A stretch of DNA of 17,652 nt from Promethearchaeota archaeon. GTDB lineage: Archaea > Asgardarchaeota > Lokiarchaeia > Sigynarchaeales > SOKP01. Position 1 is the first letter of the stretch. The number at the start of each line of letters is the position of its first letter. The position numbers and the translations under genes are program-made. The notes under the pieces were generated by a model. It was not told the origin of the DNA. It did not search any database and was given only the letters and a program-made list of their open reading frames with translations. Shown one piece after another: positions 132 through 17,523 of the stretch. The stretch spans positions 1 through 17,652 of the forward strand of contig JAHPYY010000197.1 of NCBI GenBank assembly GCA_019058515.1, given 5' to 3'.

Positions 132-1478
132 TTAAGATTTAGGTTTTATTCGTTTCTCCGACTCTTTTTCGAAAAAGTGAATGTATTTTTCGTTAAATGA
201 AACGAAAATATCACTATGAACTTGTAAATCAGTTAAACCTTCCATTTTAACGATCATGTAGTAGTCCTCGGTAAAATCTATGTATATGTAGGTATCAGAG
301 CCAATAGGTTCAATAACGCCGATATTAACTTTATAGTGATTAACTCCATCATCATTCGGTTTGACTCGTATATCTTCAGGGCGAATTCCTAAAATGACCT
401 CTTTGCCATCGTAGTCTTTTAAGTTCGAGTATCGATCAGGAATCTCATATTCAAGGGCAATACTACTAAATATCACTTTACCATTTTTGCTTTCAACCTT
501 ACCATTAATAAAATTCATTGAAGGAGAACCAATGAATCCTGCTACGAATTTATTTAATGGCTCTAAATATACTTCGTTTGGTCTTCCAACCTGTTGTAGA
601 ACCCCTTCGTTTAAAATCGCAATTCTATGGCCTAAAGTCATTGCCTCTATTTGGTCGTGTGTTACATACATCGTAGTAACTCCCAGCTTGTGGCTTAACC
701 TTTGTAATTCTGCGCGCATTTGAACTCTTAGCTTAGCGTCTAAATTAGAGAGAGGTTCGTCAAGTAGAAATACTTTTGGATTTCGGACGATAGCTCGTCC
801 GAGGGCTACCCGCTGTCGTTGTCCTCCGCTTAGCTGTTTGGGTTTTTTTACTAATTGCTGATCGATATTAAGCAATTTGGCGGCATTTTTAACTTTTTCT
901 TCGATTTCTGCCTCAACTTCTTCGTGAACTTTAATGCTATTAATCTTTTTAGCAAAGAACGATATAACTCTGTTTCTAATTGATTTTCTCACTTCACCAT
1001 ATAAAGCAAGAATTGCAAGGTAACTTATCAATCCTGCAATTAGAATTGTGATTCCAATTGATTGAAAGAGAAAAGATATTAAAAGTCCAGCCAAGAGAAT
1101 TGCGAGTATTGGAAGTAGGTAAGTTATCGTCATTATAATTGAAATGAGCAGTTTACCCGACGATTTTGCTCTTGCTCTTAATCCGAAAGCAAGATTATTG
1201 TACACATTATAATGAGGATATAATGCATAGCTTTGAAATACCATGGCAATTTCTCTATCTTTAGGTTCAACGGTATTTACTACTTTTTCACCAATTTTAA
1301 TGGAACCTTCAGTTATATCGTCAAGTCCCGCTAACATTCGAAGCGTTGTGGTTTTTCCACATCCAGATGGTCCAACTAAGCATAGGAACTCGTGATCATT
1401 TATTTCTAAATTAAAATCTTTTACTGCGGTAAAATTTCCAAATCGTTTGGTTACATTTTCAAATACTACTTTTGCCAT
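132..1478 (-). CDS. MalK/UgpC-type sugar ABC transporter ATPase with an inserted membrane hairpin
   Basis: This is the ATP-hydrolysing subunit of a carbohydrate importer, 448 residues. Visible motifs are Walker A GPSGCGKTT (residues 36-44), Q-loop Q82, signature LSGGQ (216-220), Walker B VFLLDEP (236-242), the H-loop His in VTHDQ (about 274), and a C-terminal TOBE/MalK regulatory region (about 320-440). It is longer than the usual 360-380 residues because about 80 extra residues (about 104-186) sit between the Q-loop and the signature motif. These contain two strongly hydrophobic stretches (about 110-138 and 141-160) followed by a basic, then charged helical linker. The reading frame is continuous through the insert and all catalytic motifs are intact, so the gene is not broken. 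An AAGGAGG ribosome binding site (1487-1493) overlaps the stop codon of the permease gene upstream and supports the ATG at 1478. It is the last gene of the operon. Family assignment is secure; the sugar is unknown. Confidence 0.93.
   Translation of the reverse strand: MAKVVFENVTKRFGNFTAVKDFNLEINDHEFLCLVGPSGCGKTTTLRMLAGLDDITEGSIKIGEKVVNTVEPKDREIAMVFQSYALYPHYNVYNNLAFGLRARAKSSGKLLISIIMTITYLLPILAILLAGLLISFLFQSIGITILIAGLISYLAILALYGEVRKSIRNRVISFFAKKINSIKVHEEVEAEIEEKVKNAAKLLNIDQQLVKKPKQLSGGQRQRVALGRAIVRNPKVFLLDEPLSNLDAKLRVQMRAELQRLSHKLGVTTMYVTHDQIEAMTLGHRIAILNEGVLQQVGRPNEVYLEPLNKFVAGFIGSPSMNFINGKVESKNGKVIFSSIALEYEIPDRYSNLKDYDGKEVILGIRPEDIRVKPNDDGVNHYKVNIGVIEPIGSDTYIYIDFTEDYYMIVKMEGLTDLQVHSDIFVSFNEKYIHFFEKESEKRIKPKS
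921..1166 (-). other. Membrane-hairpin insertion inside the ABC ATPase
   Basis: This segment encodes residues about 105-186 of the ATPase: a basic entry (KSSGK), two hydrophobic stretches long enough to span a membrane, a basic stretch with several Lys and Arg, then an acidic amphipathic helix leading back to the family sequence at KLLNID. Ordinary MalK proteins have only about 20 residues at this place, in the helical subdomain that docks onto the permease coupling helices. There are no intein splice residues and no stop codon. Confidence 0.75.
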
Positions 1479-1491
1479 TTTATTTTCCTCC

Positions 1492-3066
1492 TTATTTAAT
1501 TCCTCCAGCTATTACTCCAGATACAAGCTGAGATTGTAAGATCATATAGAATACTACGACTGGTGCCGCTACTATTATTGAATATGGAGTAAGTAACTCG
1601 TAAAAAGTTGGATTATCAGGAGCGTTTAAATTTTGATAGTTATAAAATAGAAGCGGTAATGTCCCTAGAGGACTCGATTCTCCTATGAATGTCCGCGCAA
1701 GTACAAATTCTTGCCAAGCTGATAAGAATGTATATACCATTACTGCGACCATACCTGCTTTTGCCAAAGGAATAGCAATTCTTATGAATGTAGCGAATTT
1801 ACCATACCCATCAATTAGCGCGGCTTCTTCGATATCTACGGGGATAGTCTCAAAATAGCCTTTCATCATCCAAACACAATAAGCAGTAGCACCAGTAGCC
1901 ATAACTAATAACAGACCTATTAAAACATAATCAGTACCTATGAATCCTAAGTCGCTAAGAATGATGTACTGCGGTATTAATAGAATTATTGCAGGAAACA
2001 TTTGAGTCGAAAGTACAACAAAAGTTAAAACAGATTTTCCTCTGAACTTGAATCGCGACAATGCGTACCCAGATGATAGTGCAAGCACTAATCCTATAAA
2101 ACTAGTACCAAAGCTTAAAAAAAGACTATTTAAGAGAGAAGTGCTAAAAGCAGGTTCATCAACCGAGATGGCAAACATTACTGAGGAATAGTTAACAATC
2201 AAAGATCTTAGTGGGTCACTCGGTAATCCCGTACCAATTTCTCCGGGTGCTGAAATAGAAGCAATCACCGCCAAAGCTAATGGAAAGATTGTAAAAATCA
2301 AATATATAAATAAGATAATGTAAAACGGTAAGTTTTTCAAAATTGAGAGTACAGTTGATTTTATAGAAGTCTTTACACCTGATTCTAGTCTTTTTGACTC
2401 AGTTAAGAACTCGTCCTTAAGTTTAAAAGCGTTTCGTTTCACATAAACAATAACGACTAAAATTACCAATAGAATCGTCATTATTATGAAAAATGTGAAT
2501 GTTAATGCTTCGATTATGGGAGAAATTGCCGCTAGATCAATTCTAATCCAATCGTTTCCAGACACATCTTCGATAAATTCTTGGGTAACAGGATCATATA
2601 TTCTTATACCAGGAAAGCTCGCGATTATCGGTACACTATTGAATATCCAAAAAGATGTAACTCCAGATGCCAAACTAAGTAATGTATTGATCATTAACAA
2701 CGTCCTTGAAGTTTTAAACCAACTTTTTTTGATGAGATAGTGGAAAATCATTACGATTGTGCAAACAAGAAATAAAATGTTCCCAAATATAAATATTCCG
2801 AAATTCTGCAATAACAAATGGGTTAATTCTGGCAACGGTATAGTGCGATATATAGGATCTGCGTTACGCCATTGAGAACCTGTAGAATACACAATCCGGT
2901 TCCATAATATCGTCTCTGTTTCCCAGAATCCAAGAAAAATGCATGTAAAGCTGAAAAACGATAACAGCAATAAGAGATAGTCCCAGTTCTTAAAAGTAAT
3001 AGTAAACATTTTGTCTTTTTTCGAAACAATTTTGAATTCTTCTACACTAATAGTTTCTTCTTTCAT
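1492..3066 (-). CDS. MalG-type sugar ABC permease with an N-terminal membrane extension
   Basis: This is one of the two membrane subunits of the sugar importer. The canonical MalG/binding-protein-dependent permease module occupies residues about 240-524 and carries the EAA coupling motif (EEAALIDGYGKFATFIRIAI, about 413-432) followed by IPLAKAG. It ends with the typical SGVIAGGIK tail. At 524 residues it is nearly twice the usual 270-300, because about 235 residues precede the canonical first helix. They contain roughly four hydrophobic segments (about 29-48, 86-112, 121-143, 180-208) separated by polar loops. The ATG at 3066 is preceded by a GGAAGAG-like site, and the gene lies 10 bp after the MalF-like gene and 13 bp before the ATPase. 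The function of the extension is unknown. Confidence 0.9.
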   Translation of the reverse strand: MKEETISVEEFKIVSKKDKMFTITFKNWDYLLLLLSFFSFTCIFLGFWETETILWNRIVYSTGSQWRNADPIYRTIPLPELTHLLLQNFGIFIFGNILFLVCTIVMIFHYLIKKSWFKTSRTLLMINTLLSLASGVTSFWIFNSVPIIASFPGIRIYDPVTQEFIEDVSGNDWIRIDLAAISPIIEALTFTFFIIMTILLVILVVIVYVKRNAFKLKDEFLTESKRLESGVKTSIKSTVLSILKNLPFYIILFIYLIFTIFPLALAVIASISAPGEIGTGLPSDPLRSLIVNYSSVMFAISVDEPAFSTSLLNSLFLSFGTSFIGLVLALSSGYALSRFKFRGKSVLTFVVLSTQMFPAIILLIPQYIILSDLGFIGTDYVLIGLLLVMATGATAYCVWMMKGYFETIPVDIEEAALIDGYGKFATFIRIAIPLAKAGMVAVMVYTFLSAWQEFVLARTFIGESSPLGTLPLLFYNYQNLNAPDNPTFYELLTPYSIIVAAPVVVFYMILQSQLVSGVIAGGIK

Positions 3067-3076
3067 TATTCTCTTC

Positions 3077-4675
3077 CTATTCCTCCAAAAGTTGTTCAGT
3101 TTTCAAAAATCGTCGATATACGAGACTAAATGATATTAGAATGAGAAATACTGTAAATGCCAGCGCACTCGCTTCTGAATATTGGTTTTGAGAAAATCTA
3201 TTATAAATGAATGTCACGAAAATATCGTAATATATGGCATTACCTAAACCTGTTTGATTCTGTGTTAAAATGTACACCACATTAAACAACTTGAATGTCC
3301 AAATTATCCCTAAGAGAGAAACAGTCAAAAGAGTTGGTTTTAGTAAAGGTAATGTTATCTTTTTGAATTGAGCCCATTCCGTTAATCCATCAATCATAGC
3401 CGCTTCGTAAAGTTCTTTTGGTATTGATTGAAGAGTTGCTAAAAACGAAAGCATCATAAATGGTACACCTAACCAGACATTTATTAAAATTGCCGAAAAG
3501 GTTATCATTTTTAGACGCATACCAATGTCTTTAGGTCCAAAGATATAGACATCGTCAGTGTACCAGAATGTCGAAGAAATTTGTGGGATATCGATAAGTT
3601 TGTACCCGATAAAGCTCACTAATTCAAGTGGACGAAGCAACAATATAAATAGTTCGTTAACAAGAAACGCCAATCCTAATCCACCTAGTCCTAGTACAAG
3701 CAACAAGAGTGGCTTTAAAGAAGAACCAACTTTCTTCGAAAGGAATTTATATGAGTAAGATAAAGTTGCAAAAACGAGGATAATAGTTATTACTATACTT
3801 ATCAAATTTCCAATCGTAAATGCATAACTTGGGCCTAATAGCTCTGTATTTGATCCAAGTATCCCTAGATCTTTATCGAACACCAAAGCTCTCCACATCA
3901 AGGTAGATACAAACGAAGGAACTGCCCAAGGTAAAATGAATATAGCTCGGAAAAGTCCACGACCTATAAACTCTCGATTCAACAGAATTGCTAATGTGAT
4001 GCCCAAAATGATGTGTATGAAAGTACAAGTTAGCGTCCAAAACAAAGTATTAAACAAAATTCGTAAAAAATTTATATCTGGGTCAGTTAAAACTTCTCTA
4101 TATTCGTCCCATGGGACTTGTACAAAAAATCCTGCAAAGTATGATATCCATTGTAAAATGTAATCAATGAGATATATTAAAAGTGGGGCAATTACTAGTA
4201 TTGTAAGAGGAGCTATAGCTAATCCAAGTAAGAACGCCACAAATATTCTTAATAATTTACTGTCTTTAAGCCGTTTGAATCTAATTAGTTTTTTGTAAGA
4301 AAATCTCGTGTATGCGATTGTAAGTATGGCAATTATTAAAGTCACCAATCCGTCTATTAGGAATATTCCTGGATTGTATCTATCTACTCGATAGAAAAAG
4401 TCGCTGAAACCTATTCCCGCCAAGTTTTCAAAATTAGTGTAATAATAGATAGAGTTTCGCAACTCTAGAACGGTTGGATTTTTGAATATACTAACGATGA
4501 ATGAAAACACTATAGGGTAGAACACAAAAAGAATTAACGATGTGTAGGCAGGAACGAGAAACAGTAGTTTTCGGATTGATTCTTTAACTGATTTTTTTTT
4601 TTTAGTCTTCGAATGCCTTTTTTTAACTGGTGTGATAGGTTCTTCTAAAGTTTGTTCAATAGCCAAAAATTTCAC
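3077..4675 (-). CDS. MalF-type sugar ABC permease with extra membrane segments
   Basis: This is the second permease subunit. The N-terminus is basic and cytoplasmic (residues 18-36, Lys-rich), followed by a first helix (about 37-63). The permease core begins near NFLRILFNT (about 202) and carries the EAA motif (ELYEAAMIDGLTEWAQFKKI, about 421-440) followed by TLPLLKP. Compared with typical archaeal MalF proteins (about 290-320 residues), this one has 532. Hydrophobic segments appear to be inserted between helix 1 and the core (about 104-123 and 142-182) and again in the middle (about 286-309 and 321-350). The start is uncertain. The upstream GTG at 4675 shares its first base with the GGAG ribosome binding site, so the TTG at 4666-4664 (8 nt spacing) is the more likely initiator. 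The gene follows the binding-protein gene after a 75-bp gap holding a hairpin and U-tract. The substrate is probably a sugar or oligosaccharide, by family only. Confidence 0.9.
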   Translation of the reverse strand: MKFLAIEQTLEEPITPVKKRHSKTKKKKSVKESIRKLLFLVPAYTSLILFVFYPIVFSFIVSIFKNPTVLELRNSIYYYTNFENLAGIGFSDFFYRVDRYNPGIFLIDGLVTLIIAILTIAYTRFSYKKLIRFKRLKDSKLLRIFVAFLLGLAIAPLTILVIAPLLIYLIDYILQWISYFAGFFVQVPWDEYREVLTDPDINFLRILFNTLFWTLTCTFIHIILGITLAILLNREFIGRGLFRAIFILPWAVPSFVSTLMWRALVFDKDLGILGSNTELLGPSYAFTIGNLISIVITIILVFATLSYSYKFLSKKVGSSLKPLLLLVLGLGGLGLAFLVNELFILLLRPLELVSFIGYKLIDIPQISSTFWYTDDVYIFGPKDIGMRLKMITFSAILINVWLGVPFMMLSFLATLQSIPKELYEAAMIDGLTEWAQFKKITLPLLKPTLLTVSLLGIIWTFKLFNVVYILTQNQTGLGNAIYYDIFVTFIYNRFSQNQYSEASALAFTVFLILISFSLVYRRFLKTEQLLEE

Positions 4676-4750: not shown

Positions 4751-6208
4751 TTATTTTCTCATCTTCTTCTTAAGCAACATAATGATTCCGATTGTACCAA
4801 TGAACATCGAGGCAAGAACTAATGGTATCTCAAATCCAGGAATTGGAGGCGCAGGAGGAACTGGAGGGTCTCCAGAAGTTACATCTGCTGTTGCTGGGAG
4901 GATGTCTGCCCAGAGGTCAATGGTATCAGAGATGCATGTGTCTACAGTTATATCTCCTTTTAAGTATTCGTCGATTTTGTTTCCAAAAGCTGTTTCCATT
5001 TGACCATAATAAGGAGAGGAAGCCAATTGAAACGCGTTTAAAGCCTGCTCGTAATACGCTCTCACATATGGGTATGAATCAGCATTCGTAACATCGGTAC
5101 GAGACATAACACTTTTTCTTGCTGGAACATGATAGTTGCTAATTGCGCTTTGAGCCATCATATCGGCCGAAGACAAAAACTTTATGAATTTCACTGCAGC
5201 TGTATATTCGGTATCAGAAGCTTGACTAGAGATAGTATAGTATTGTCCTCCAATTATCGCTCCGTAATCACCAGCTTCATCGTGTGGGAGTTGCATAAAT
5301 CCTAAATTTTCTCCTCCATTGAACAAAGCTTGGCTTTCTACAAGATCGGTAAGGTCCCATGGTCCAGTCGCAATCATTGCAACTTTACCACTTCTGAAAT
5401 CACCACCAAAATATGACCATCCTTGTTCAGTCCAAGGGGGCGTCCACGAACTATCTGTAACTTGCTTTAAATATTCTAATGCTGCTTTTGACGCAGCACT
5501 ATCAACCGTGACGTGCGCTTGATCAAATATATTATTTTCAACAAACGCAGCTCCCATTCCGTAATAATAAGGCTGAGCGGAGAAGAATAAACCTGCAAGC
5601 GAAAGAGGGTACTCACCGGCGGGCAAAGCTGTATCTAAAGTATCCATAAGGGTTCCAAATTGTGCCCAAGTAAGGGAAGTTTCGAATGTGTAGTCATTAA
5701 CACTGAGCCCTGCTTCAATAAACATCTCCTTATTGTATACAAATGTTGGACAATCGATGCTCTGAGGGAACGCCCAGAATTTTTGATCGTAAGACGATAA
5801 TTTTCGAGAAGCATCAATGAAATCGTTATAATCTTCATACGTCCATTCAGCTGTGAGATCCATAATTAAACCATCTTTTGCAAACCTCACTACATCATCT
5901 CTGGGAGTTCTTAGAACTTGTGGCTCGTTTGCAGCTGCAAACGCAGTAGCGAATTCATCCCCAACTCCAAAAAATCCTTTTTGTTCAGCTGTAATGGCAA
6001 TGTCCGGATTAGCCGCTTCGAATGCAGCGACCTTAGCAAGTAATCCTGGTTTCTCTGCATCGTTTTCTGTATACCAAAAAGTTAATGTAACAGTTTGTGC
6101 AGGCTTTGGCGCCGCAAGTGCGAAGGACATCAATGGAACACTTAAACTGAAACCTAATAGTAGTATAATTAACGCTCTAAAATTTCTACTTTTCATTTTT
6201 TTAAGCAC
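4751..6208 (-). CDS. MalE-type sugar-binding lipoprotein-like protein, C-terminally membrane-anchored
   Basis: This is the extracellular solute-binding protein of the importer (bacterial family 1/MalE-like fold). It has a positively charged signal peptide (residues 1-33, hydrophobic core about 12-31, ending near ALAAP). The mature part starts TVTLTFWYTEND, typical of family-1 sugar binders. Later family features are a segment reading GKVAMIATGPWDL (about 275-286) and a KFIKFLSS segment (340-347). The C-terminus has a Pro-rich linker (449-456), an IPGFE motif (456-460), a hydrophobic helix (about 461-479) and a KKKMRK tail, so the protein is likely held on the outer face of the cytoplasmic membrane. 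This tail resembles archaeal PGF-type sorting or anchor signals. The longest frame starts with GTG at 6208; an ATG at 6196 (residue 5) is an equally good start and neither has a clear ribosome binding site. It is the first gene of the operon. Confidence 0.9.
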   Translation of the reverse strand: MLKKMKSRNFRALIILLLGFSLSVPLMSFALAAPKPAQTVTLTFWYTENDAEKPGLLAKVAAFEAANPDIAITAEQKGFFGVGDEFATAFAAANEPQVLRTPRDDVVRFAKDGLIMDLTAEWTYEDYNDFIDASRKLSSYDQKFWAFPQSIDCPTFVYNKEMFIEAGLSVNDYTFETSLTWAQFGTLMDTLDTALPAGEYPLSLAGLFFSAQPYYYGMGAAFVENNIFDQAHVTVDSAASKAALEYLKQVTDSSWTPPWTEQGWSYFGGDFRSGKVAMIATGPWDLTDLVESQALFNGGENLGFMQLPHDEAGDYGAIIGGQYYTISSQASDTEYTAAVKFIKFLSSADMMAQSAISNYHVPARKSVMSRTDVTNADSYPYVRAYYEQALNAFQLASSPYYGQMETAFGNKIDEYLKGDITVDTCISDTIDLWADILPATADVTSGDPPVPPAPPIPGFEIPLVLASMFIGTIGIIMLLKKKMRK

Positions 6209-6415: not shown

Positions 6416-7546
6416 TTAATATTTGACATCATCCAAAGGAATTTTGATTACGACCGCAGGATTTGGATCATTTTCCAACTTAATATCCCAGGAATGAGCA
6501 GTTATTATGCGTTTAATTATTTGTAAGCCTAATCCTTGACTATTAGAGTCGAAAGTATTAAAATGGTTATTGAACTTGTCTAAAATCTTTTTTGGAAAAG
6601 GTAAGCCATCGTTTTCTAAATAATAATAGCACATTCCCTCGACTTTTTCAGAATATATCTTTAAGTTCTTTGGTTTCCCGTGTATTATAGCGTTTTCAAT
6701 TACATTTTTCCACACTTGATATAAACGGCGATTATCCGCCATAATTGAAGAGGGTAAAACTCCATATGTTACATTAATTCCTTCTGGGATCATCAAGTCA
6801 ACAATGTTTTTTGAAAATACAAGTAAATCAATTTTCTCCTTCTTATCAATAAGTTTACCTGAGTCTGCTAGTTTTAAAGAGGATTCTAATAATTTGTTTA
6901 TGTGTTTTACTTGGTCGATAATAATCTGCGGATATTTCCTGTCTAGTTTTTCTTTCATTAATTGAGCGTAACCTGCAATAGAAGAGAGATATGTTCGGAT
7001 ATCGTGAACCATTATATGAGCAAAATTGCTTAACTCATTTTTTTGTTTTTTGAGTTCCTCTTCCATCTTAACCTTTTGAGATATAATCTCGCGGAAAGGA
7101 TTGATTATTCGTTTACTTGTAAAATAAACGGTAATATTAAGCATTGAAATGATATTTAGCAAACCAATAAAAACAGCCATTACAAGAAAAGGTATATTTG
7201 ATCTTAAAACTCCCCAATTTGGTGTCAATTTCGTCATCAACGAGGCAAACAAACCGGAAAATCCTGCAAAAATAGCGAGAATTAAGTATAAATTTCTCTG
7301 AAATTTTAATTTGATAAAGATACGAGTAAAAATCCAATATGGAACAAATAGAATAAGCGCGTAAAAGAACTCAATAATCATGATTTGAAACAAAGTTTCA
7401 TCTAAAAGATAGAGATGTAACCAAAAAATAACTGAAGTTAGGATGTAAACTATTATTGAAACGATATTTATGAAATTGAGCTGTCTCAAAGCCAAAAACC
7501 TTGAAAGTTTGTCAAAATGCTTTTTAAGTTTGGCTCTCGTAATCAT
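6416..7546 (-). CDS. Membrane sensor histidine kinase
   Basis: This is a two-component-type kinase of 376 residues. The N-terminal half has about four membrane helices (about 25-48, 55-78, 86-105, 117-141) with very short loops, so no large extracellular sensor domain. A basic, coiled-coil-like linker (about 150-173) leads to the dimerisation helix with the phospho-acceptor H181 in MVHDIRTYLSSIAGYAQL. The ATPase part shows the N-box (NVIENAIIHG, 281-290), a G1-like box (ENDGLPFP, 311-318) and the G2 box QGLGL (337-341), ending with the usual I-K-I-P-L strand. All catalytic boxes are present, so it is probably active. No response regulator is visible here. It lies 207 bp upstream of the sugar transporter operon on the same strand, and its start is 31 bp after the end of a symporter remnant. 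Control of the transporter is possible but unproven. Confidence 0.88.
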   Translation of the reverse strand: MITRAKLKKHFDKLSRFLALRQLNFINIVSIIVYILTSVIFWLHLYLLDETLFQIMIIEFFYALILFVPYWIFTRIFIKLKFQRNLYLILAIFAGFSGLFASLMTKLTPNWGVLRSNIPFLVMAVFIGLLNIISMLNITVYFTSKRIINPFREIISQKVKMEEELKKQKNELSNFAHIMVHDIRTYLSSIAGYAQLMKEKLDRKYPQIIIDQVKHINKLLESSLKLADSGKLIDKKEKIDLLVFSKNIVDLMIPEGINVTYGVLPSSIMADNRRLYQVWKNVIENAIIHGKPKNLKIYSEKVEGMCYYYLENDGLPFPKKILDKFNNHFNTFDSNSQGLGLQIIKRIITAHSWDIKLENDPNPAVVIKIPLDDVKY

Positions 7547-8309: not shown

Positions 8310-9206
8310 ATGAGAGAATCTGAATCTCAATCAGAAAAGTTTTCCCATAAATATGCTACTTCTTATAGTATTGCGCAATTGTCTGATATAACTGCCTATC
8401 AAACCTTCACATTTCTGGTCTTTACCTTTTATTTCGCTAATTGGCATTAGAATTGAATTAATTGTTACAGGTTTTCTAATCTGGGCTTTATGGAACAGTT
8501 TCAATGATTCTATTATTGGATATGTATCTGACAAGACTCATACCAAATGGGGACGGCGCAAGGTTTATATCATGATTGCATTAGTTCCATTAGCAATTCT
8601 TGTTTTACTCTTATTTACTCCTCCTTTGGCTTTTGGGATTGCAAGTGAAACGCTCAATTTTGTTTACTTCCTTATCATCATAATGTGTTTCGAATTGTTC
8701 TTCACGATATATGATGTAAACTTTACGGCACTATTCCCGGAATTATTTCTCTCCGTGGAAGAACGAACTAAAGCAAATAATGTAAGACAGGCATTTGCGA
8801 TTGTAGGGTTAATCATGGCGTTCGTATTACCCGGTTTATTTATCTCAGACTATTCAAATCCGGCAAATTTACCTCAATATCAAATTTTTGGAATTATCAT
8901 TGCTATTATTATAATTGTTCCCGGTGCTCTATTTTTAAAATTTTCGCCGAATGAAAAATCTGAATTCGGTGAAGATTATAAAGAAACTCCCGGATTTATA
9001 GAGTCCCTAAAACATGCTTTAAAAGTAAATCTTTCGCATGGTATATCCCGGCAGAAGTCGCGAATTGGTTTGTTTATGGAATGTTGCCAGCTATTGTGCC
9101 CCTCTACGGCAAGTTTGTTTTAGGTATCTCAGATACGCTCCTCTTATCTTTATTATTAGGTTTGAGAGTGCTATTACTTAAATTACTCTTAAATGCTCTG
9201 AATTAA
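8310..9206 (+). pseudogene. N-terminal remnant of a GPH-family (MelB-like) sugar:cation symporter
   Basis: From the ATG at 8310 the product reads a polar start and helix 1 (KYATSYSIAQLSDITAYQ), then meets a stop just after 8440. Shifting frame there restores the family sequence: a helix with LIWALWNSFNDSIIGYVSD and the hallmark GPH loop THTKWGRRK. This continues to about 9022, where a second shift restores KSFAWYIPAEVANWFVYGML and YGKFVLGI. The spacing fits a 2-nt deletion at about 8438-8442 and a 1-nt deletion at about 9024-9027. Homology ends near LLLGL (about 9163); the last codons before TAA at 9204-9206 run through the end of fwdA on the other strand. Only about 290 of the expected 450-500 residues remain. 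The gene is broken and truncated; sequencing error could explain the shifts but not the truncation. Confidence 0.8.
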
Positions 9207-10854
9207 GCGGTACTTTATAGTTATCGTAAAATAACGAGTTGTATTTTTCGAAATAACTGACTTTTCTTGATAAACTTAGATTAGATATATCAATGTCTTT
9301 TATTTCTTGAGATACATATATTTTTCCACTCAAAGAGCTATCAGTATGATTTTTGTTTTTTACGACCTGCCCCGATTTAAGAACGTATTCAAGTGCAGAT
9401 AATGCTCTTACTACTTTATCGTATTCTTTTTCGAAATCGATATCGTTAACATTAATATCTAACACATTTAAATCTCCATCTGCGTTTGGTCCAAGATTTC
9501 CTTTGATCTTTCCTATACCAAGAGATTTAGCAGGAGACGCTCGAGATATGACGACAAAATCGTTGAATGTTAAGTTATTTTCCAAATTTTGAAGTGTAGT
9601 AGATGATTTGAATTCGTCGCTCATATCTTCCATGTACTTATTTCGCGCTTCAGAACTCATTAACCAACTCCCAATCTTTGCCACATTAGTAATATTTCCG
9701 TAATTTGGAAAATTAAGAGAGAGTTGGACTTGCCATTTATTCTTAGCTTTGATTGCAAGTTCAATCGCATTTGCCCAGTAAACGCAATGAGTTTTATTAC
9801 TTTTGGAAAACACTCTAATTGACGCAAAAAAATCACCTTCTGATTCTATAGCCGATGTAACTAAAGGAGATAGGAGGTTGTTACTTCTATGCTCTTGTTG
9901 AATTAAATGGCGGTCTGAAGTTATGATTGGATTTATGTCATCAAATCCGATAAATCCCAAATCTAAATCGAATCTTTCATCAGAGTTAATTAGATTTAAT
10001 TGAGCGGTAGTATCTCCATCCCTATTAAGCGTGGAAGCGTGAGCGATGTGCAATAGTTGCTGACGAGATGTAAGAGTTTCTTCCGAATCAACTATTCTCG
10101 AAGGAAGTTCTTTAACTTTTTCAGTTATTTCAGCTAAATTATTCTTAGCAACATCTGTTTCGTATCCTTCTATGTGAGCGTGTAGTGAATGAGGTAAATT
10201 AAGGTGCTCTACGGCTTTTGTTAAGGAAATGTAAACATCTAAAGGTGAAAAATTATAAAGTCTTCCTTGACTTGAAATTCCTTTTCTAAGGGATTTTAAG
10301 TTCCAATCTTCGTTTTCAAATGGATTGTAAACTTTTATGCCAAACGCGTTCGTCTTTTTCAAAAGATCGCTTAGGAAGATTGCAATATCCTCTGTTTTAT
10401 GTCTTTGGTACTCCAGATCTAGCATCCATAGATTACTCGTGTTGAGTAAAAAAGCTTTATCTAACACGGGCAAGTTTTTAAGATTAAATACGGTTTGGTT
10501 TGCTAAAGAAGGGAATACATTTGCCTCGGTGACAAATGTATAACCCATTTTGATGTAATTTTGTGCAATAGCGTTTAAAGTCAGATTATTCCAATATGAT
10601 TTGAATTTTTCGTAATTTACGCCTAATAATCTTACCCAATTTAACTGAGGTGTTGCGATGTGGCAATGAATATCAATCCCTGCTGGAATTATGGTCTTGT
10701 CTTGCGCGTTTATCTCTTTTACCTGATTTTCGCTCGAAAATTTCTCGACGATTATACCATTCTCTATTAGTATGTCTTTGACTTCCCCATTGATATTATT
10801 AATAGGATCGTAAACATGTCCGTTTTTTACAATTATCTTGCTCATACTATTCAC
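9178..10854 (-). CDS. fwdA: Formylmethanofuran dehydrogenase subunit A-like amidohydrolase, divergent active site
   Basis: FwdA is the metal-dependent amidohydrolase that exchanges formate and formyl-methanofuran in the Fwd complex, the CO2-fixing entry step of the archaeal methyl branch. The 558 residues are near full family length. Visible features are the HxH metal motif (DIHCHIA, H63/H65), the Lys of GIKVYNPFE (K174, position of the carboxylated Lys), LPHSLHAH (H225/H227), LLHIAH (H269/H272), and the segment YWANAIELAI ... WQVQLS that precedes the last motif. There the family TDHPN motif is LNFPN (residues 380-384), so the usual metal-binding/catalytic Asp is Asn and the next His is Phe. 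The start at 10854 is GTG; the ATG at 10845, with GAGTG just upstream, starts MSKIIVKNGHVYD and is more likely. It follows fwdD by 5-14 bp. No fwdC and no T-rich terminator follow; a truncated symporter abuts the stop codon. Confidence 0.9.
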   Translation of the reverse strand: MNSMSKIIVKNGHVYDPINNINGEVKDILIENGIIVEKFSSENQVKEINAQDKTIIPAGIDIHCHIATPQLNWVRLLGVNYEKFKSYWNNLTLNAIAQNYIKMGYTFVTEANVFPSLANQTVFNLKNLPVLDKAFLLNTSNLWMLDLEYQRHKTEDIAIFLSDLLKKTNAFGIKVYNPFENEDWNLKSLRKGISSQGRLYNFSPLDVYISLTKAVEHLNLPHSLHAHIEGYETDVAKNNLAEITEKVKELPSRIVDSEETLTSRQQLLHIAHASTLNRDGDTTAQLNLINSDERFDLDLGFIGFDDINPIITSDRHLIQQEHRSNNLLSPLVTSAIESEGDFFASIRVFSKSNKTHCVYWANAIELAIKAKNKWQVQLSLNFPNYGNITNVAKIGSWLMSSEARNKYMEDMSDEFKSSTTLQNLENNLTFNDFVVISRASPAKSLGIGKIKGNLGPNADGDLNVLDINVNDIDFEKEYDKVVRALSALEYVLKSGQVVKNKNHTDSSLSGKIYVSQEIKDIDISNLSLSRKVSYFEKYNSLFYDNYKVPLNSEHLRVI

Positions 10855-10859
10855 TCTGG

Positions 10860-11246
10860 TTATTTTCGTTGAAATTTTGATATTAATTCAGAATAAGTTA
10901 ATACGGGGGTACTAGTAGGCTCTACTTCTACTTCAATGTTCTTGTAAGTCAACTGATCGTTTTCTATCCCCGTAATTTGGTTTGCCCAAATAGACACAGG
11001 AATTATCAACATATGTTCGGGAACCTCTTGTTTTTTTTGGCTATACAATACCACCTCACCGTATTTTCCCCTAATATGTAGATTTAAACCTTCCTTCAAT
11101 CCTAGAGCTGAGAAATCATTGGGATTTAGAAAGCACATGGCAAGATTTTTGTGAATCTCTTTGTAATCTCCAAACGCGTATTCTTTAGCTTGGTCAAAAT
11201 CCACCATTCTAACAGTGCTAGCAATTAAATTCAAATTATTTCTCAC
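10860..11246 (-). CDS. fwdD: Formylmethanofuran dehydrogenase subunit D (molybdopterin dinucleotide-binding)
   Basis: This small subunit (128 residues) forms the C-terminal molybdopterin-dinucleotide-binding barrel that completes FwdB. Recognisable features are the segment around NLAMCFLNPNDFSALGL (about 34-50), the GKYGEVVL strand, the motif IIPVSIWANQITG (equivalent of the family IPMGPWAN) and the closing VEVEPT plus V-L-T-Y-S-E-L tail. The start is GTG at 11246, inside the last codons of fwdB (11-bp overlap), which points to translational coupling. It acts in the cytoplasm as part of the FwdBD catalytic unit. Confidence 0.9.
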   Translation of the reverse strand: MRNNLNLIASTVRMVDFDQAKEYAFGDYKEIHKNLAMCFLNPNDFSALGLKEGLNLHIRGKYGEVVLYSQKKQEVPEHMLIIPVSIWANQITGIENDQLTYKNIEVEVEPTSTPVLTYSELISKFQRK

Positions 11247-12546
11247 CCTTCTTTTCCAGTAATTTTGTGTTTAAATTTTGTAGTAATTCATAATCAGAGG
11301 GTATACCGCTAGGAGGGTTAATGATCTTTTTTAGGAACACAGGAACATTATCCAATCGAATGGCTAACCCTTCGGTTTCTATTCCGGTAATCGCAGTGGG
11401 GAGCACTACATCAGCTAATTCAGTTGTAGCTGAGCGTTTGTTGTCAACTACGATAATCGGATTGTTAGAAAGCTTAGAGCTTAAGAGTGAAGGTAAGTGG
11501 GAAATTGGATCTGTACCAACTACCAATAGACTGTCGAAATCGTCTCGAAGCAAAGATATAGCATAATCACGTTTATCTTTAACGAGTTCTCCGTTTTCAA
11601 ACTCGATGTTATGATTACTTCCGGTTAGATTTAACGCAACATGCTCAAATCCCATCATGTTATAATGACCTCCCATAAGCATAACAGAAATACGCCCTTT
11701 TTGCTGTTTCTCGTTAATCATATGTACTAAATTTAGCAATTCTTCTATAACATTATTATCAGGACTTGTCCTAAGAATCCCTTGTCCTATAATAATCACT
11801 ATATTTTCCGATTCGCTCAGATTAATTAATAGTCGTTTCATGTCTTCTTTGTCTAATCCTGAAATCCCTCCAGAAGGAAATCCTTGAGGATTACAACACT
11901 CTTCTTGAAGAGCTTTGATCAATTCAAGATCGGAGCCTGGCGTTATGTTTAAAGCAATATCCCGTACACCCATAACATTAAAAGAAGATGTTTTTACCGG
12001 GTCAATGATAATTAAGGTCCGGATTTCCCTTCCGGTCATTCTAAACTTCCCTCGGGTAAATAAAGTCTTATTTAGCAACCTTGGGATTGATTCTGCAGGG
12101 TTAGCGCCCCATAATATGATTAGATCGGTCTTATTTACGATCTCAGTAATTGTGGTAAGCGTGATGCCTTTTTCCCTGACGATATTAAGCACTTGGCCTT
12201 GACATATGGATGAATTTGAATCGATAATAGCATGAATATTTTTTGCAAGTTTCAACGCTTCTGCCTGAGCTTCACAAGAGGAAGTTGATAAACCGTAAAT
12301 TAAAGGTTTTTGAGAATCATTTAGAATTTCCATAGTTTTGTTAAGAGCTTCATCCCAAGGTGCCTTTTCTAATTTTCCAGCGTTCCGTATCATTGGTGTC
12401 GTTATTCTATTTTTGGCTGTTACCTGAGAAAACCGTTCATATCCCTTTAAACAAGCGCCATAAATATCGACTATAAAGAGCCCATCTGTGTTAACCAATA
12501 AATCATCACATAGTAGTGAACATCCCGAACAAGGATATCGTTTCAT
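11236..12546 (-). CDS. fwdB: Formylmethanofuran dehydrogenase subunit B (Mo/W catalytic subunit), His-to-Gln variant
   Basis: This catalytic subunit carries one [4Fe-4S] cluster and a bis-molybdopterin Mo or W centre and reduces CO2 to formate in the family. It is 436 residues, the normal length. N-terminal cluster cysteines are C6, C9, C13 and C32 (CSGCSLLC ... GACLKG). The likely metal ligand is C115 in SSICQGQ; known methanogen FwdB proteins have Cys-His-Gly-Pro here, so the residue after the Cys is Gln instead of His. Pterin-binding segments such as LWGANPAES, IIIDPVKTSS and VVGTDPISHLPS are preserved, as is TAITGIETEGLAIRLDNVP near the end. The ATG at 12546 has GAGATG at 12559-12554. It lies 25 bp after the Fe-S protein gene and overlaps fwdD. 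Cys rather than Ser/Sec at the metal position keeps it with redox-active FwdB, unlike the inactive bacterial FhcB. Confidence 0.92.
   Translation of the reverse strand: MKRYPCSGCSLLCDDLLVNTDGLFIVDIYGACLKGYERFSQVTAKNRITTPMIRNAGKLEKAPWDEALNKTMEILNDSQKPLIYGLSTSSCEAQAEALKLAKNIHAIIDSNSSICQGQVLNIVREKGITLTTITEIVNKTDLIILWGANPAESIPRLLNKTLFTRGKFRMTGREIRTLIIIDPVKTSSFNVMGVRDIALNITPGSDLELIKALQEECCNPQGFPSGGISGLDKEDMKRLLINLSESENIVIIIGQGILRTSPDNNVIEELLNLVHMINEKQQKGRISVMLMGGHYNMMGFEHVALNLTGSNHNIEFENGELVKDKRDYAISLLRDDFDSLLVVGTDPISHLPSLLSSKLSNNPIIVVDNKRSATTELADVVLPTAITGIETEGLAIRLDNVPVFLKKIINPPSGIPSDYELLQNLNTKLLEKKGEK
12193..12210 (-). other. FwdB metal-site motif with Gln replacing His
   Basis: These codons give S-I-C-Q-G-Q (FwdB residues 113-118). 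From family knowledge the equivalent stretch in methanogen FwdB reads V-C-H-G-P, with the His acting next to the metal-bound Cys. The reading is unambiguous: TGT CAA GGC on the minus strand. Confidence 0.7.
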
Positions 12547-12571: not shown

Positions 12572-13057
12572 CTAAACGTATTCTATTTTTATAGCTTCGC
12601 GCGGACAATAGGTTTCGCAAACCCTACATTCCCGTTCTCTACCTTCCGCTTCAAGTCTACGACAGTGTTTAATGTTAAGCAATTCACATTTTCCTTTTTT
12701 AACTTGAAATAATTGGTGAGATTCCGGGGGGTAATTGGGAGCTTTTCCGCTTAAAGTTGGAGGACAATATCTTGCATTTACGGGACAAACTGTAACACAA
12801 ATACCACATCCGTCGCAAGAATCTTCGTCTACATTTATCTTAAGCTCCTTTTCCTTACCTTCTTCTGAACCTATTAATTCCTTAAGGTTATCGTACTGTT
12901 TCTTGTACTTGGGTTCAAGCAGAGGGGTGCAATCGTCGATTTTAACTTTGCCTTGTAACAAATCTAGGGCAAAGGCCATACAGGTTGGTTTTCCGCACTT
13001 TTTACAATTAGTTTTTGGTAAAAATTTGTACAATTCCATAAAATTTTGAACGGGCAT
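12572..13057 (-). CDS. Fes-domain / dicluster ferredoxin-like Fe-S protein of the fwd operon
   Basis: This 161-residue protein probably carries electrons to or from the Fwd-like complex. The N-terminal part matches the Fes [4Fe-4S] domain found in CODH/ACS gamma subunits and RnfB: C18, C21, C26 and C43 in NCKKCGKPTCMAFA ... DDC. After a charged linker comes a classic ferredoxin motif CDGCGICVTVCP (C81, C84, C87, C91), with an extra C98. A second, spread-out set follows (C124, C132, C144, C147, C151), ending ECRVCETYCP, so three clusters are likely. It is the first gene of the operon, with GGAG at 13065-13062 before the ATG at 13057. Known Fwd complexes use FwdF and FwdG polyferredoxin subunits; neither is here, so this protein may replace them. 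That replacement is an inference from position and cysteine content. Confidence 0.82.
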   Translation of the reverse strand: MPVQNFMELYKFLPKTNCKKCGKPTCMAFALDLLQGKVKIDDCTPLLEPKYKKQYDNLKELIGSEEGKEKELKINVDEDSCDGCGICVTVCPVNARYCPPTLSGKAPNYPPESHQLFQVKKGKCELLNIKHCRRLEAEGRERECRVCETYCPREAIKIEYV

Positions 13058-14327: not shown

Positions 14328-15203
14328 ATGGGAAACGATAACGATGTACCCGATATTGACTTGAAGGCAACAGTGGAGGAAGGTAAAAAGGAGATTATGG
14401 ACGAGCGTGCTGAAAATATTCGTAAAAATATGGAAAAAATCAAGCATAAAATCGTAATAATCTCTGGCAAAGGAGGAGTAGGGAAAACTACGGTTTCAGT
14501 AAACTTAGCAATGAGTTTAGCCAGTTTAGGATTAAGGGTAGGATTATTAGATGTCGATATTACGGGTCCTAATGTGTTGAAAATGTTAGGGGTAAATCCT
14601 GAACTTAAACCCCGTATCGATGCTGAAAATCAGAAGTTTTATCCGGTAAACGGACCTTTAAATACTAAGGTAATGTCAATGGCTTTTTTAGTGGAAAGCT
14701 CAGATTCACCAGTAATTTGGAGAGGTCCAATGAAAATGGGGGCAGTTCGTCAATTTCTTGGCGACGCAATCTGGGGGGATTTAGATTATCTTATCTGTGA
14801 CCTCCCTCCAGGAACTAGCGACGAGACATTAGATATTTTACAACTTATTCCAGATGAAAATGTAATTGTAATTACCACTCCACAACAAGTAGCCCTAATG
14901 GATGCCAGAAAAACGATTAAGATGTCTCAGATAATGCAGAGAAAGGTTTTGGGGATAATTGACAATATGTCTGGATTTAAATGTCCACATTGCGGAGAAC
15001 ACATTAAACTATACCCCGAAGGCGGTGTTTCAAAAGCCTCTTTAGATTTTGGTGTACCTATTCTAGGAAGAATACCATTTGAACTAAGCGTAAGTCAGCA
15101 GGGGGATCTTGGATTACCTTTTGTTTTAAAATACCCTGATTCTGACAGTGCTAAAGCCTTTAAAGAGACAGTAAAAAAAATAAGAGAAATTTTAGAGAAA
15201 TAA
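14328..15203 (+). CDS. mrp: Mrp/NBP35-type Fe-S cluster carrier ATPase
   Basis: This is a P-loop ATPase of the Mrp/ApbC/NBP35 family that binds and transfers [4Fe-4S] clusters to apoproteins. After a charged N-terminal region (1-38), the deviant Walker A GKGGVGKTT spans residues 47-55, DVDITGPN (75-82) is the switch/A' motif, and DLPPGTSDE (158-166) is the Walker B region. The CPHC pair (C219, C222), the bridging-cluster site, is present, followed by GVPILGRIPF. Length (291) is normal. The N-terminus has no CX13CX2CX5C motif of eukaryotic NBP35, as expected for archaeal forms. GGAG lies 6 nt before the ATG. Its neighbours, a NifX-like protein and an Fe-S-rich Fwd-like operon, suggest that it supplies clusters to them; this is inferred from proximity. 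Confidence 0.94.
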   Translation: MGNDNDVPDIDLKATVEEGKKEIMDERAENIRKNMEKIKHKIVIISGKGGVGKTTVSVNLAMSLASLGLRVGLLDVDITGPNVLKMLGVNPELKPRIDAENQKFYPVNGPLNTKVMSMAFLVESSDSPVIWRGPMKMGAVRQFLGDAIWGDLDYLICDLPPGTSDETLDILQLIPDENVIVITTPQQVALMDARKTIKMSQIMQRKVLGIIDNMSGFKCPHCGEHIKLYPEGGVSKASLDFGVPILGRIPFELSVSQQGDLGLPFVLKYPDSDSAKAFKETVKKIREILEK

Positions 15204-16207: not shown

Positions 16208-17523
16208 TCAAACTGGGGTTTTTGAACCTCGTAAAAATGATAAAAAGGCAGCAATTAAACAAACAATAAGAGATACTAAAAATACAAAATGGAGTCCATT
16301 CATAAATTCTATTACATTTATCCCTTCTGATCCAACCTGGGTACCTGTAAATAAACCTTGTAAAGCTTGCGAGGTCATTGAAGTCGAGATCACATCCATG
16401 GTTATGGCCAAACTTATTATTCGGCCAATATTCATGGTCATCGATCTAGTTCCCGCTGCAATTCCTCTCTTATCCGGAGGCACTGCTCCCATTATAGTAT
16501 TGGTATTGGGTGCTAAAAATATTCCCGTGCCTACGCCCATTACAATAAGCCAAAAAAAAGTGAATAAAATACTAGAAGTTGGCTCTATTAGAACGAAACC
16601 AATCAATCCTATTGCTGATATAATCAATCCAAATGTACTTAAACCCCTAGAACCATAACTATCTGATACTCGACCACTAAGAGGAGATATAACCATTAGT
16701 GTAGCAGCAAATGGTGTGAGTAAAATCCCTGCTATAAGGGGATCGAAATTCTGAATTCCATGTAAATATAGTACTAAAAGGAAAGTAATAGCCCCCTTGC
16801 AATCCCATTCAATAAGTTAGAAATTAAGGCAAAACTCAAGATAATTATCGGATTTATCCACCCTAAAAAGGCTCCAAATGTGGACCCCAATAATACTATT
16901 AATAAACCTAACGTAAAGAGTATCGTTCCACTCCAATCGAAAGTTTGATTTGGTGGTAAGAGATTGATTTCACGCAATTGCATTTGAGACCAAATTGTAC
17001 CAATAATTCCAATAGGTACATTCACAAAAAAGATAAGCCGCCAATTAATGATCGTGAGCGCTCCACCGATGATTGGCCCCGCCACGGCTCCAACACTTAT
17101 CATCATACCGTTAATGCTTAAGGCTTTTCCTAGTTCATTTTTTGGAAAAGCATCGGTAACAATCGTAGTACTATTGGCAAATAGTAATACTGCTCCACTT
17201 GCTTGAATAACCCGAAATGCGATTAATATCTCCCCATTAAAAGAAAAACCAGATAATAATGAACATAAAGTAAAAATCATAAATCCTCAAACAAATAATT
17301 GTTTCCGACCAATCATGTCAGCGACCCTGCCAATTGCAGGAATGAGTATTGTAAGAATTAACATATAGCTCATGATTGTCCATAATATAACCGTGAATGA
17401 GGTATTTAAGTCTAACATTATAGAGGGAAGTGCGATTACTACAGCTGTGCTATTAAATATAGAGAAAAAAGCCCCTAAACTAGTACAAGAGAGTGCAATC
17501 CATTTATATTGAATTTTTTTCAT
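16208..17523 (-). pseudogene. Broken DHA2-type (EmrB/QacA-like) MFS drug-efflux permease
   Basis: The coding remnant is about 438 codons in three pieces. The first (from the ATG at 17523) shows helix 1 with LGAFFSIFNSTAVVIALPSIM and the loop GRVADMIGRKQLF. An in-frame TGA (17287-17289) interrupts it, after which the same frame continues MIFTLCSLLSGFSF, RVIQASGAVLLFA and the DHA2 helix-5 motif GAVAGPIIGGALTIINWRLIF. Near 16815-16830 about 30-40 residues normally found between helices are missing (SFAL joins ISNLLNGIARG). At a 5-G run (C's at 16792-16796) one base is missing, since ARGAITFLLVLYLHGIQ follows in the next frame. The rest reads to SFLRGSKTPV with GRVSDSYGSRG. Three independent lesions indicate a dead gene. 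The family exports drugs or other amphiphiles. Confidence 0.82.

Follow-up and report, generated by a model that had tools for sequence, protein, structure and literature searches.

MalK, UgpC and MsmX are the ATPase subunits of the CUT1 sugar importers (TC 3.A.1.1), and the ATPase of a type I importer is classically described as a soluble subunit that is bound to the permease via coupling helices. The Asgard archaea, to which the host of the present sequence belongs, are the group thought to be nearest to the origin of the eukaryotes. For MalFGK2, the accessible part of PMC3150292 describes the docking of the permease coupling helix in a cleft of the helical subdomain; according to the accessible part of PMC7658222, this cleft involves the Q-loop, and MalK-type ATPases are exchangeable between transporters. 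The window analysed here, i.e. the whole stretch of 17,652 nucleotides from a Promethearchaeota archaeon (contig JAHPYY010000197.1), encodes a MalK/UgpC-type ATP-binding cassette (ABC) ATPase that carries a predicted membrane hairpin between its Q-loop and its signature motif. A description of a hairpin-bearing MalK-type ATPase was not found in the open literature (titles and abstracts in partial listings, subscription journals being outside of these); likewise, the main text of the Asgard transporter survey PMC7997004, in its accessible part and without supplements, contains no mention of MalK, CUT1 or "extra TMS" (transmembrane segments).

The importer locus and the insert of its ATPase

The transporter genes form a tight row on the minus strand in the order sugar-binding protein (4751..6208; PF13416, PF01547; C-terminal membrane tail), MalF-like permease (3077..4675; 532 amino acids; assigned by family match, alignment and chain matches), MalG/SugB-like permease (1492..3066; 524 amino acids; PF00528, matches to SugB and MalG chains) and, in last position, the ATPase (132..1478; 448 amino acids; assigned by open reading frame (ORF), Pfam and NCBIfam). 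The gene set of a type I ABC importer is present: the ATPase gene is adjoined by those of the binding protein and of two BPD_transp_1-type permeases, each with an EAA motif (residues 424-430 of the MalF-like and 414-420 of the MalG-like protein), and the system is predicted to be a CUT1-like sugar importer with sugar uptake as the putative function of the ATPase.

Pfam assigned ABC_tran (PF00005; 106.7 bits, cut-off 25) and OB_MalK (PF17912; 56 bits, cut-off 27) to the ATPase, which scored 443.9 bits with the NCBIfam UgpC subfamily model NF008653 (cut-off 432). The columns K42, Q82, L216-Q220, D240-E241, D247 and H274, which we take to represent Walker A, Q-loop, LSGGQ signature, Walker B, D-loop and H-loop, were invariant in 55 insert-bearing homologues; the catalytic motifs are intact, and Q82 and L216SGGQ are located where a preliminary description of this DNA had placed them. 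The AlphaFold model superposed 349-361 residues at 1.9-3.2 Å on solved MalK and MsmX chains. In its catalytic motifs, its fold, its regulatory domain of the OB (oligonucleotide/oligosaccharide-binding) fold and its operon with a binding protein and two permeases, the protein resembles MalK, UgpC and MsmX; it is a member of the MalK/UgpC family by descent and a variant in architecture. The catalytic motifs, the fold and the EAA coupling motifs indicate that its catalytic engine and coupling are conventional.

In contrast to MalK, UgpC and MsmX, the protein has about 82 additional residues, including two helices of membrane length, between Q-loop and signature, a segment that 100 insert-less matches do not possess (see below). 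The spacing from MVFQ to LSGGQ is 133 versus the typical value of 51; every one of the NCBIfam (25) and PDB (60) matches listed for the ATPase was split into at least two stretches, and in the three printed PDB alignments the first stretch stopped at residue 103 and the second opened at residues 183-189. Based on the PDB alignments and the spacing, the insert comprises residues 104-186 (921..1169, minus strand) and separates helix 1 from helix 2 of the helical subdomain. The span of the preliminary description (921..1166, minus strand; residues 105-186 of ORF 132-1478) was correct, as was its account of about 80 residues with two membrane-length stretches: the best hydrophobic 19-mers were residues 120-138 and 141-159 (mean Kyte-Doolittle hydropathy 2.58 and 2.52, respectively). 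Residue K106 of E. coli MalK, which is presumably linked to permease contact, would be placed at the insert site; no open paper was found to support this assumption.

According to hydropathy and the AlphaFold model, the first membrane helix extends over residues 108-137 (1068..1157, minus strand) and the second over residues 141-159 (1002..1058, minus strand); they are followed by a helix of residues 161-176 (951..998, minus strand; delimited by the model and the homologues) that starts with the conserved motif [FY]-x-[ED]-x-R-x-x-I and is cytoplasmic as judged by its charge. The ten-residue mean of the predicted local distance difference test (pLDDT) was 89-94 over residues 111-180, and the model combines a confidently predicted helical hairpin with an intact MalK core. 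Charged letters in the 55 aligned rows amounted to 3% in columns 111-137 and 0% in columns 145-160 versus 28-33% immediately outside; the flanking charges of the insert-bearing matches are of the positive-inside type, as would be expected of a hairpin whose two ends both lie in the cytoplasm. Judged by these flanks and by its pair of hydrophobic helices of membrane length, the ATPase is predicted to be an integral membrane protein, and it departs from the usual build of the peripheral subunits with their short Q-loop-to-signature stretch devoid of hydrophobic segments. Hydropathy, charge pattern and model strongly suggest that the insert crosses the membrane, in agreement with the earlier proposal of a membrane hairpin in the permease-facing helical subdomain. 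The insert of the ATPase itself had no Pfam match at cut-off, and among 22 insert rows the best E-value was 0.0002 (DUF4229, two rows; the cut-off of DUF4229 was not displayed); a convincing match of the insert to a known Pfam domain was therefore not obtained.

Distribution of the insert among related ATPases

Two protein searches, considered for the best 120 rows listed in each, resulted in 166 ATPase matches, 163 of them with a Q-loop and LSGGQ pair; the second search employed a profile of 55 insert-bearing proteins, and lower-ranking Asgard ATPases fall outside these rows. A hydrophobic 19-mer between the two motifs was present in 63 of the 163 listed scorable ATPases (two segments in 60 proteins, four in two, one in one) and missing in 100. 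The motif spacing was 132-137 in 59 of the 63 insert-bearing proteins, and 51 in 95 and 73 in five of the insert-less ones. The latter five (P0066, P0071, P0076, P0095 and P0105, which is named Anaerolineae) possess about 22 extra residues at the same site, three of them having been aligned there, and, unlike the hairpin clade, no hydrophobic segment; as they were not sister to that clade in the tree, this shorter insert was rejected as an evolutionary intermediate.

In the tree of 98 ATPases calculated after removal of the insert (quick method, no bootstrap), the 62 insert-bearing rows were all positioned on one side of a branch with a Shimodaira-Hasegawa-like approximate likelihood ratio test (SH-aLRT) value of 99, and a single gain of the insert would be the simplest reading. 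The profile search contributed just six further insert-bearing proteins (P0241-P0246), which suggests that the group is discrete and has been almost exhausted in the searched database. All of the 14 listed Asgard-named matches (Promethearchaeota, Thorarchaeota, Hodarchaeales, Harpocratesius) carried the insert; the other named carriers were P0242, filed under Methanobacteriota, and P0030, labelled [Eubacterium] cellulosolvens, which the tree places between rows with Asgard names and which is possibly mislabelled. The homologue search called for by the preliminary description found the insert conserved at the same place in relatives, and no close relative lacking it among the listed named ones; in view of this conservation, the insert is less a freak than had been assumed and more a biological system.

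The insert evolves fast (median pairwise identity 0.30, compared with 0.75 in the ATPase-domain core and 0.50 in the OB domain), yet its length is nearly constant. A conserved aromatic residue and the [FY]x[ED]xR motif recur in it among the relatives, and two of these, P0018 and P0021, have four membrane-length segments in the insert. The viral-contig scan revealed no relative, and none of the best 80 loci listed in the genome-contig scan carries an Asgard name. Neither the whole ATPase (E 1e-80) in 59 relatives of a Haloferax genome nor an insert-only profile in 392 genomes of the phylum of that Haloferax genome gave a match, and the profile matched one of 400 genomes of the phylum of an Anaerolineae genome, all three scans being weak, as no insert-bearing genome served as positive control; that single match, an ORF of about 197 amino acids, is by length and letters no ABC ATPase.

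Remodelled permeases and the proposed architecture of the importer

The permeases of the window match MalF and MalG chains, as known from the E. coli MalFGK2 structures (2r6g and others), and bear EAA coupling motifs. In contrast to the E. coli complex, the MalF-like permease possesses a membrane hairpin at the place of the P2 domain and a second extra hairpin, and the MalG-like permease four extra N-terminal segments; the soluble P2 domain of E. coli MalF is here assumed to be located at the site of the former hairpin. Alignment, AlphaFold model and segment counts place the extra hairpins at about residues 100-181 (4133..4378, minus strand; helices 108-130 and 140-181) and about residues 280-360 (3596..3838, minus strand; helices 288-313 and 321-352) of the MalF-like protein; the extension of the MalG-like protein with its four hydrophobic segments comprises residues 1-248 (2323..3066, minus strand), the MalG core match starting at residue 249. 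Both extra helix pairs are present in the AlphaFold model of the MalF-like permease (mean pLDDT 89.6), and in an alignment of 22 long homologues (of P0121-P0175) with the window protein and five bacterial ones both inserts were common to the long homologues and absent from the bacterial proteins. Between PWAxP and NxWxGxPF, the long permeases (52 of 55 scorable) had a median of 146 residues (two segments in 46 proteins, three to five in the remaining six); the short permeases (39 of 65 scorable) had a median of 52 residues and no segment in 39 of 39. Upstream of PWAxP, four segments were counted in 30, five or more in 16 and three or fewer in six of the 52 long permeases, and two segments in 38 of the 39 short ones. 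Some long MalF-like permeases are larger (596-860 amino acids; P0133, P0134, P0136-P0138, P0144-P0146), and the aligned P0133, P0137 and P0144 showed further insertions or an N-terminal extension.

The exact size of the longest contig, equality of which we take to mean that ATPase and permease reside on the same contig, was shared with a long permease by 27 of the 63 insert-bearing ATPases (26 distinct sizes); no such sharing occurred between the 60 insert-less ATPases of the first protein search and long permeases or between the 63 insert-bearing ATPases and the 65 short permeases. A size-matched long permease was missing for 36 of the 63, where many contigs are short or the permease is possibly outside the list. 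Because the permeases of the same operon contain extra membrane segments, the hairpin ATPase is part of a wider remodelled transporter and not the oddity of a single ATPase: the preliminary description was right about the hairpin, whereas its framing around the ATPase alone had overlooked these segments.

The insert, its hydropathy and charge pattern, its conservation, its restriction to a single clade, the intact motifs and fold and the MalF-like hairpins were all obtained by computation, and on this basis we consider it probable that the ATPase is an integral membrane subunit beside its own permease, with coupling as in MalFGK2. The hairpin, which emerges from the loop that follows helix 1 of the helical subdomain, would enter the bilayer from the cytoplasm, where both of its ends remain. 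It would thereby make the ATPase integral and keep it next to its own permeases, beside the rim of the cleft that accommodates the coupling (EAA) helices, and would most likely pack alongside the permease body and the accessory helices. We infer that the ATPase spans the membrane in the cell, touches the permease and stays attached through the whole cycle as the dedicated ATPase of a single transporter, with ATP binding, hydrolysis and coupling expected to proceed as in MalFGK2. Permanent anchoring of the ATPase, one of several functions suggested beforehand, would be the most likely one; no support was obtained for the other two, binding of a membrane regulator and gating of the coupling.

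Several points weigh against this architecture. The two hairpin helices have only weakly conserved faces (p 0.28 and 0.07 in shuffle tests), a result that is equally compatible with a docking surface and with an anchor exposed mainly to lipid; and, as the amphipathicity of helix 160-176 is not significant (p 0.09), the placement of this helix on the cytoplasmic face of the membrane, though probable, is a guess. Residues 108-137 show a periodic hydropathy (p 0.0004), so that one side of the first helix is less hydrophobic than the rest. Pairwise identities of the insert and of the two permease inserts, after removal of the core identities, correlated with r 0.41 in both cases, four control correlations being little lower (0.17-0.34) and the 26 ATPase-permease pairs non-independent, so that the correlation would give mild support at most to a contact between the inserts. 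P0021, with its four segments, is probably encoded beside an ordinary permease (520 amino acids) of the same group, and hence the fit of hairpin and permease would not be very strict. Moreover, no result contradicts a sharing of the ATPase among transporters, and the MalG-like extension was observed in this window only. Owing to the fast evolution, the constant length, the two doublings and the lack of a significantly conserved face, a largely lipid-facing anchor, i.e. a second attachment of the ATPase, fits better than a precise regulatory interface.

A more far-reaching version, which we put forward tentatively, regards the importers of the Asgard archaea and of at least one lineage filed under Methanobacteriota as a distinct class, in which ATPases crossing the membrane are integral and non-exchangeable: the transport core would be surrounded by an outer collar, made up of the hairpin of each ATPase copy together with the accessory helices of the two permeases, and the movement of the helical subdomain would be braced by, or passed straight into, the membrane part. 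It is unlikely that the hairpin is instead a specific docking or regulatory surface that contacts another membrane protein or the accessory helices of the permease, adjusts the rotation of the helical subdomain and thereby gates the coupling of the ATPase. The hairpin does sit in the subdomain whose movement passes to the coupling helices (PMC3150292, accessible part), and the conserved aromatic residue, the [FY]x[ED]xR motif and the weak excess of the correlation with the permease inserts would agree with such a role; the low sequence conservation and the two relatives with a doubled hairpin contradict it, and a conserved helix face, tried as proof of docking, was rejected as not significant. 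We regard as slightly less likely still a targeting or assembly device that would send the nascent ATPase co-translationally to the membrane and play no role in the transport cycle. A hydrophobic, short and fast-evolving hairpin (0.30 versus 0.75 in the core) of near-constant length with inside-inside charges would be in keeping with such a device; however, such a signal could be terminal, whereas the internal site beside the permease contact was kept across the whole clade, and the presence of extra hairpins in the partner permease argues for a function within the finished complex. A soluble helical core or oligomerisation element outside the membrane is very improbable: although the less hydrophobic face of the first helix would be compatible with it and the membrane topology is a prediction, the two near charge-free stretches, the positive-inside flanks, the long model helices and the permease-facing subdomain speak against it, and the model, inspected for this scenario of the preliminary description, contains a helical hairpin and no added soluble core. 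An assembly chimera, a frameshift or a unique oddity, as might be suspected from other apparently broken genes of the window (major-facilitator transporters), is ruled out by the same insert in 63 of the 163 listed scorable database proteins and by the occurrence of the same protein on another contig (483,880 bases); these two findings also exclude chance.

Neighbouring genes and relation to other ABC ATPase insertions

The C-terminal tail of the binding protein resembles the Loki-CTERM sorting signal (18.8 bits, just below the cut-off of 19.9), consistent with surface anchoring and, like the Asgard-named relatives of the ATPase, with an Asgard host. Upstream of the transporter genes and on the same strand, a histidine kinase with a hydrophobic N-terminal part is encoded (6416-7546, minus strand), a possible regulator of these genes. 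Major-facilitator-like genes that appear broken into several ORFs, as decayed genes or through sequence errors, are located at 8310-9123 (plus strand) and 16208-17523 (minus strand), where the family assignment covered 8572-9123 and 16774-17280. Formylmethanofuran dehydrogenase A-, D- and B-like genes lie in a row at 9178-12546 (minus strand; only the B-like one above the family cut-off), followed by an iron-sulfur (Fe-S) protein like the N-terminus of acetyl-CoA synthase gamma and RnfB (12572-13057, minus strand; all below the family cut-offs), a FeMo-cofactor-domain protein (PF02579; 13414-13878, minus strand) and, back to back with the latter, a Mrp-like Fe-S carrier ATPase (14328-15203, plus strand; below the family cut-off).

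Long helical insertions that separate the half with the Q-loop from the half with the signature are also a feature of Rad50/SMC proteins, whose coiled coils leave the ATPase at this point; these are soluble, measure tens of nanometres and serve in DNA repair or chromosome function. The Arm of the ABC-F protein EttA is presumably inserted between Q-loop and signature as well; the ABC-F Arm is soluble, acts on the ribosome and lacks membrane helices, and ABC-F proteins are not transporter subunits. Compared by position only, the hairpin insert shares the topological place of the Rad50/SMC coiled coil and resembles the ABC-F type of insertion in an ABC ATPase domain that serves to dock on a partner, the EttA Arm being residues 94-136 of nucleotide-binding domain 1 (NBD1) and touching the L1 stalk according to the accessible part of PMC8782954.

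In this largely Asgard clade, the importer ATPase appears to have been turned into an integral subunit and the permease to have been enlarged, which would represent a natural test of how far coupling needs free movement and exchange of the ATPase. It would also change the handling of such proteins at the bench (membrane extraction instead of soluble purification) as well as their annotation.
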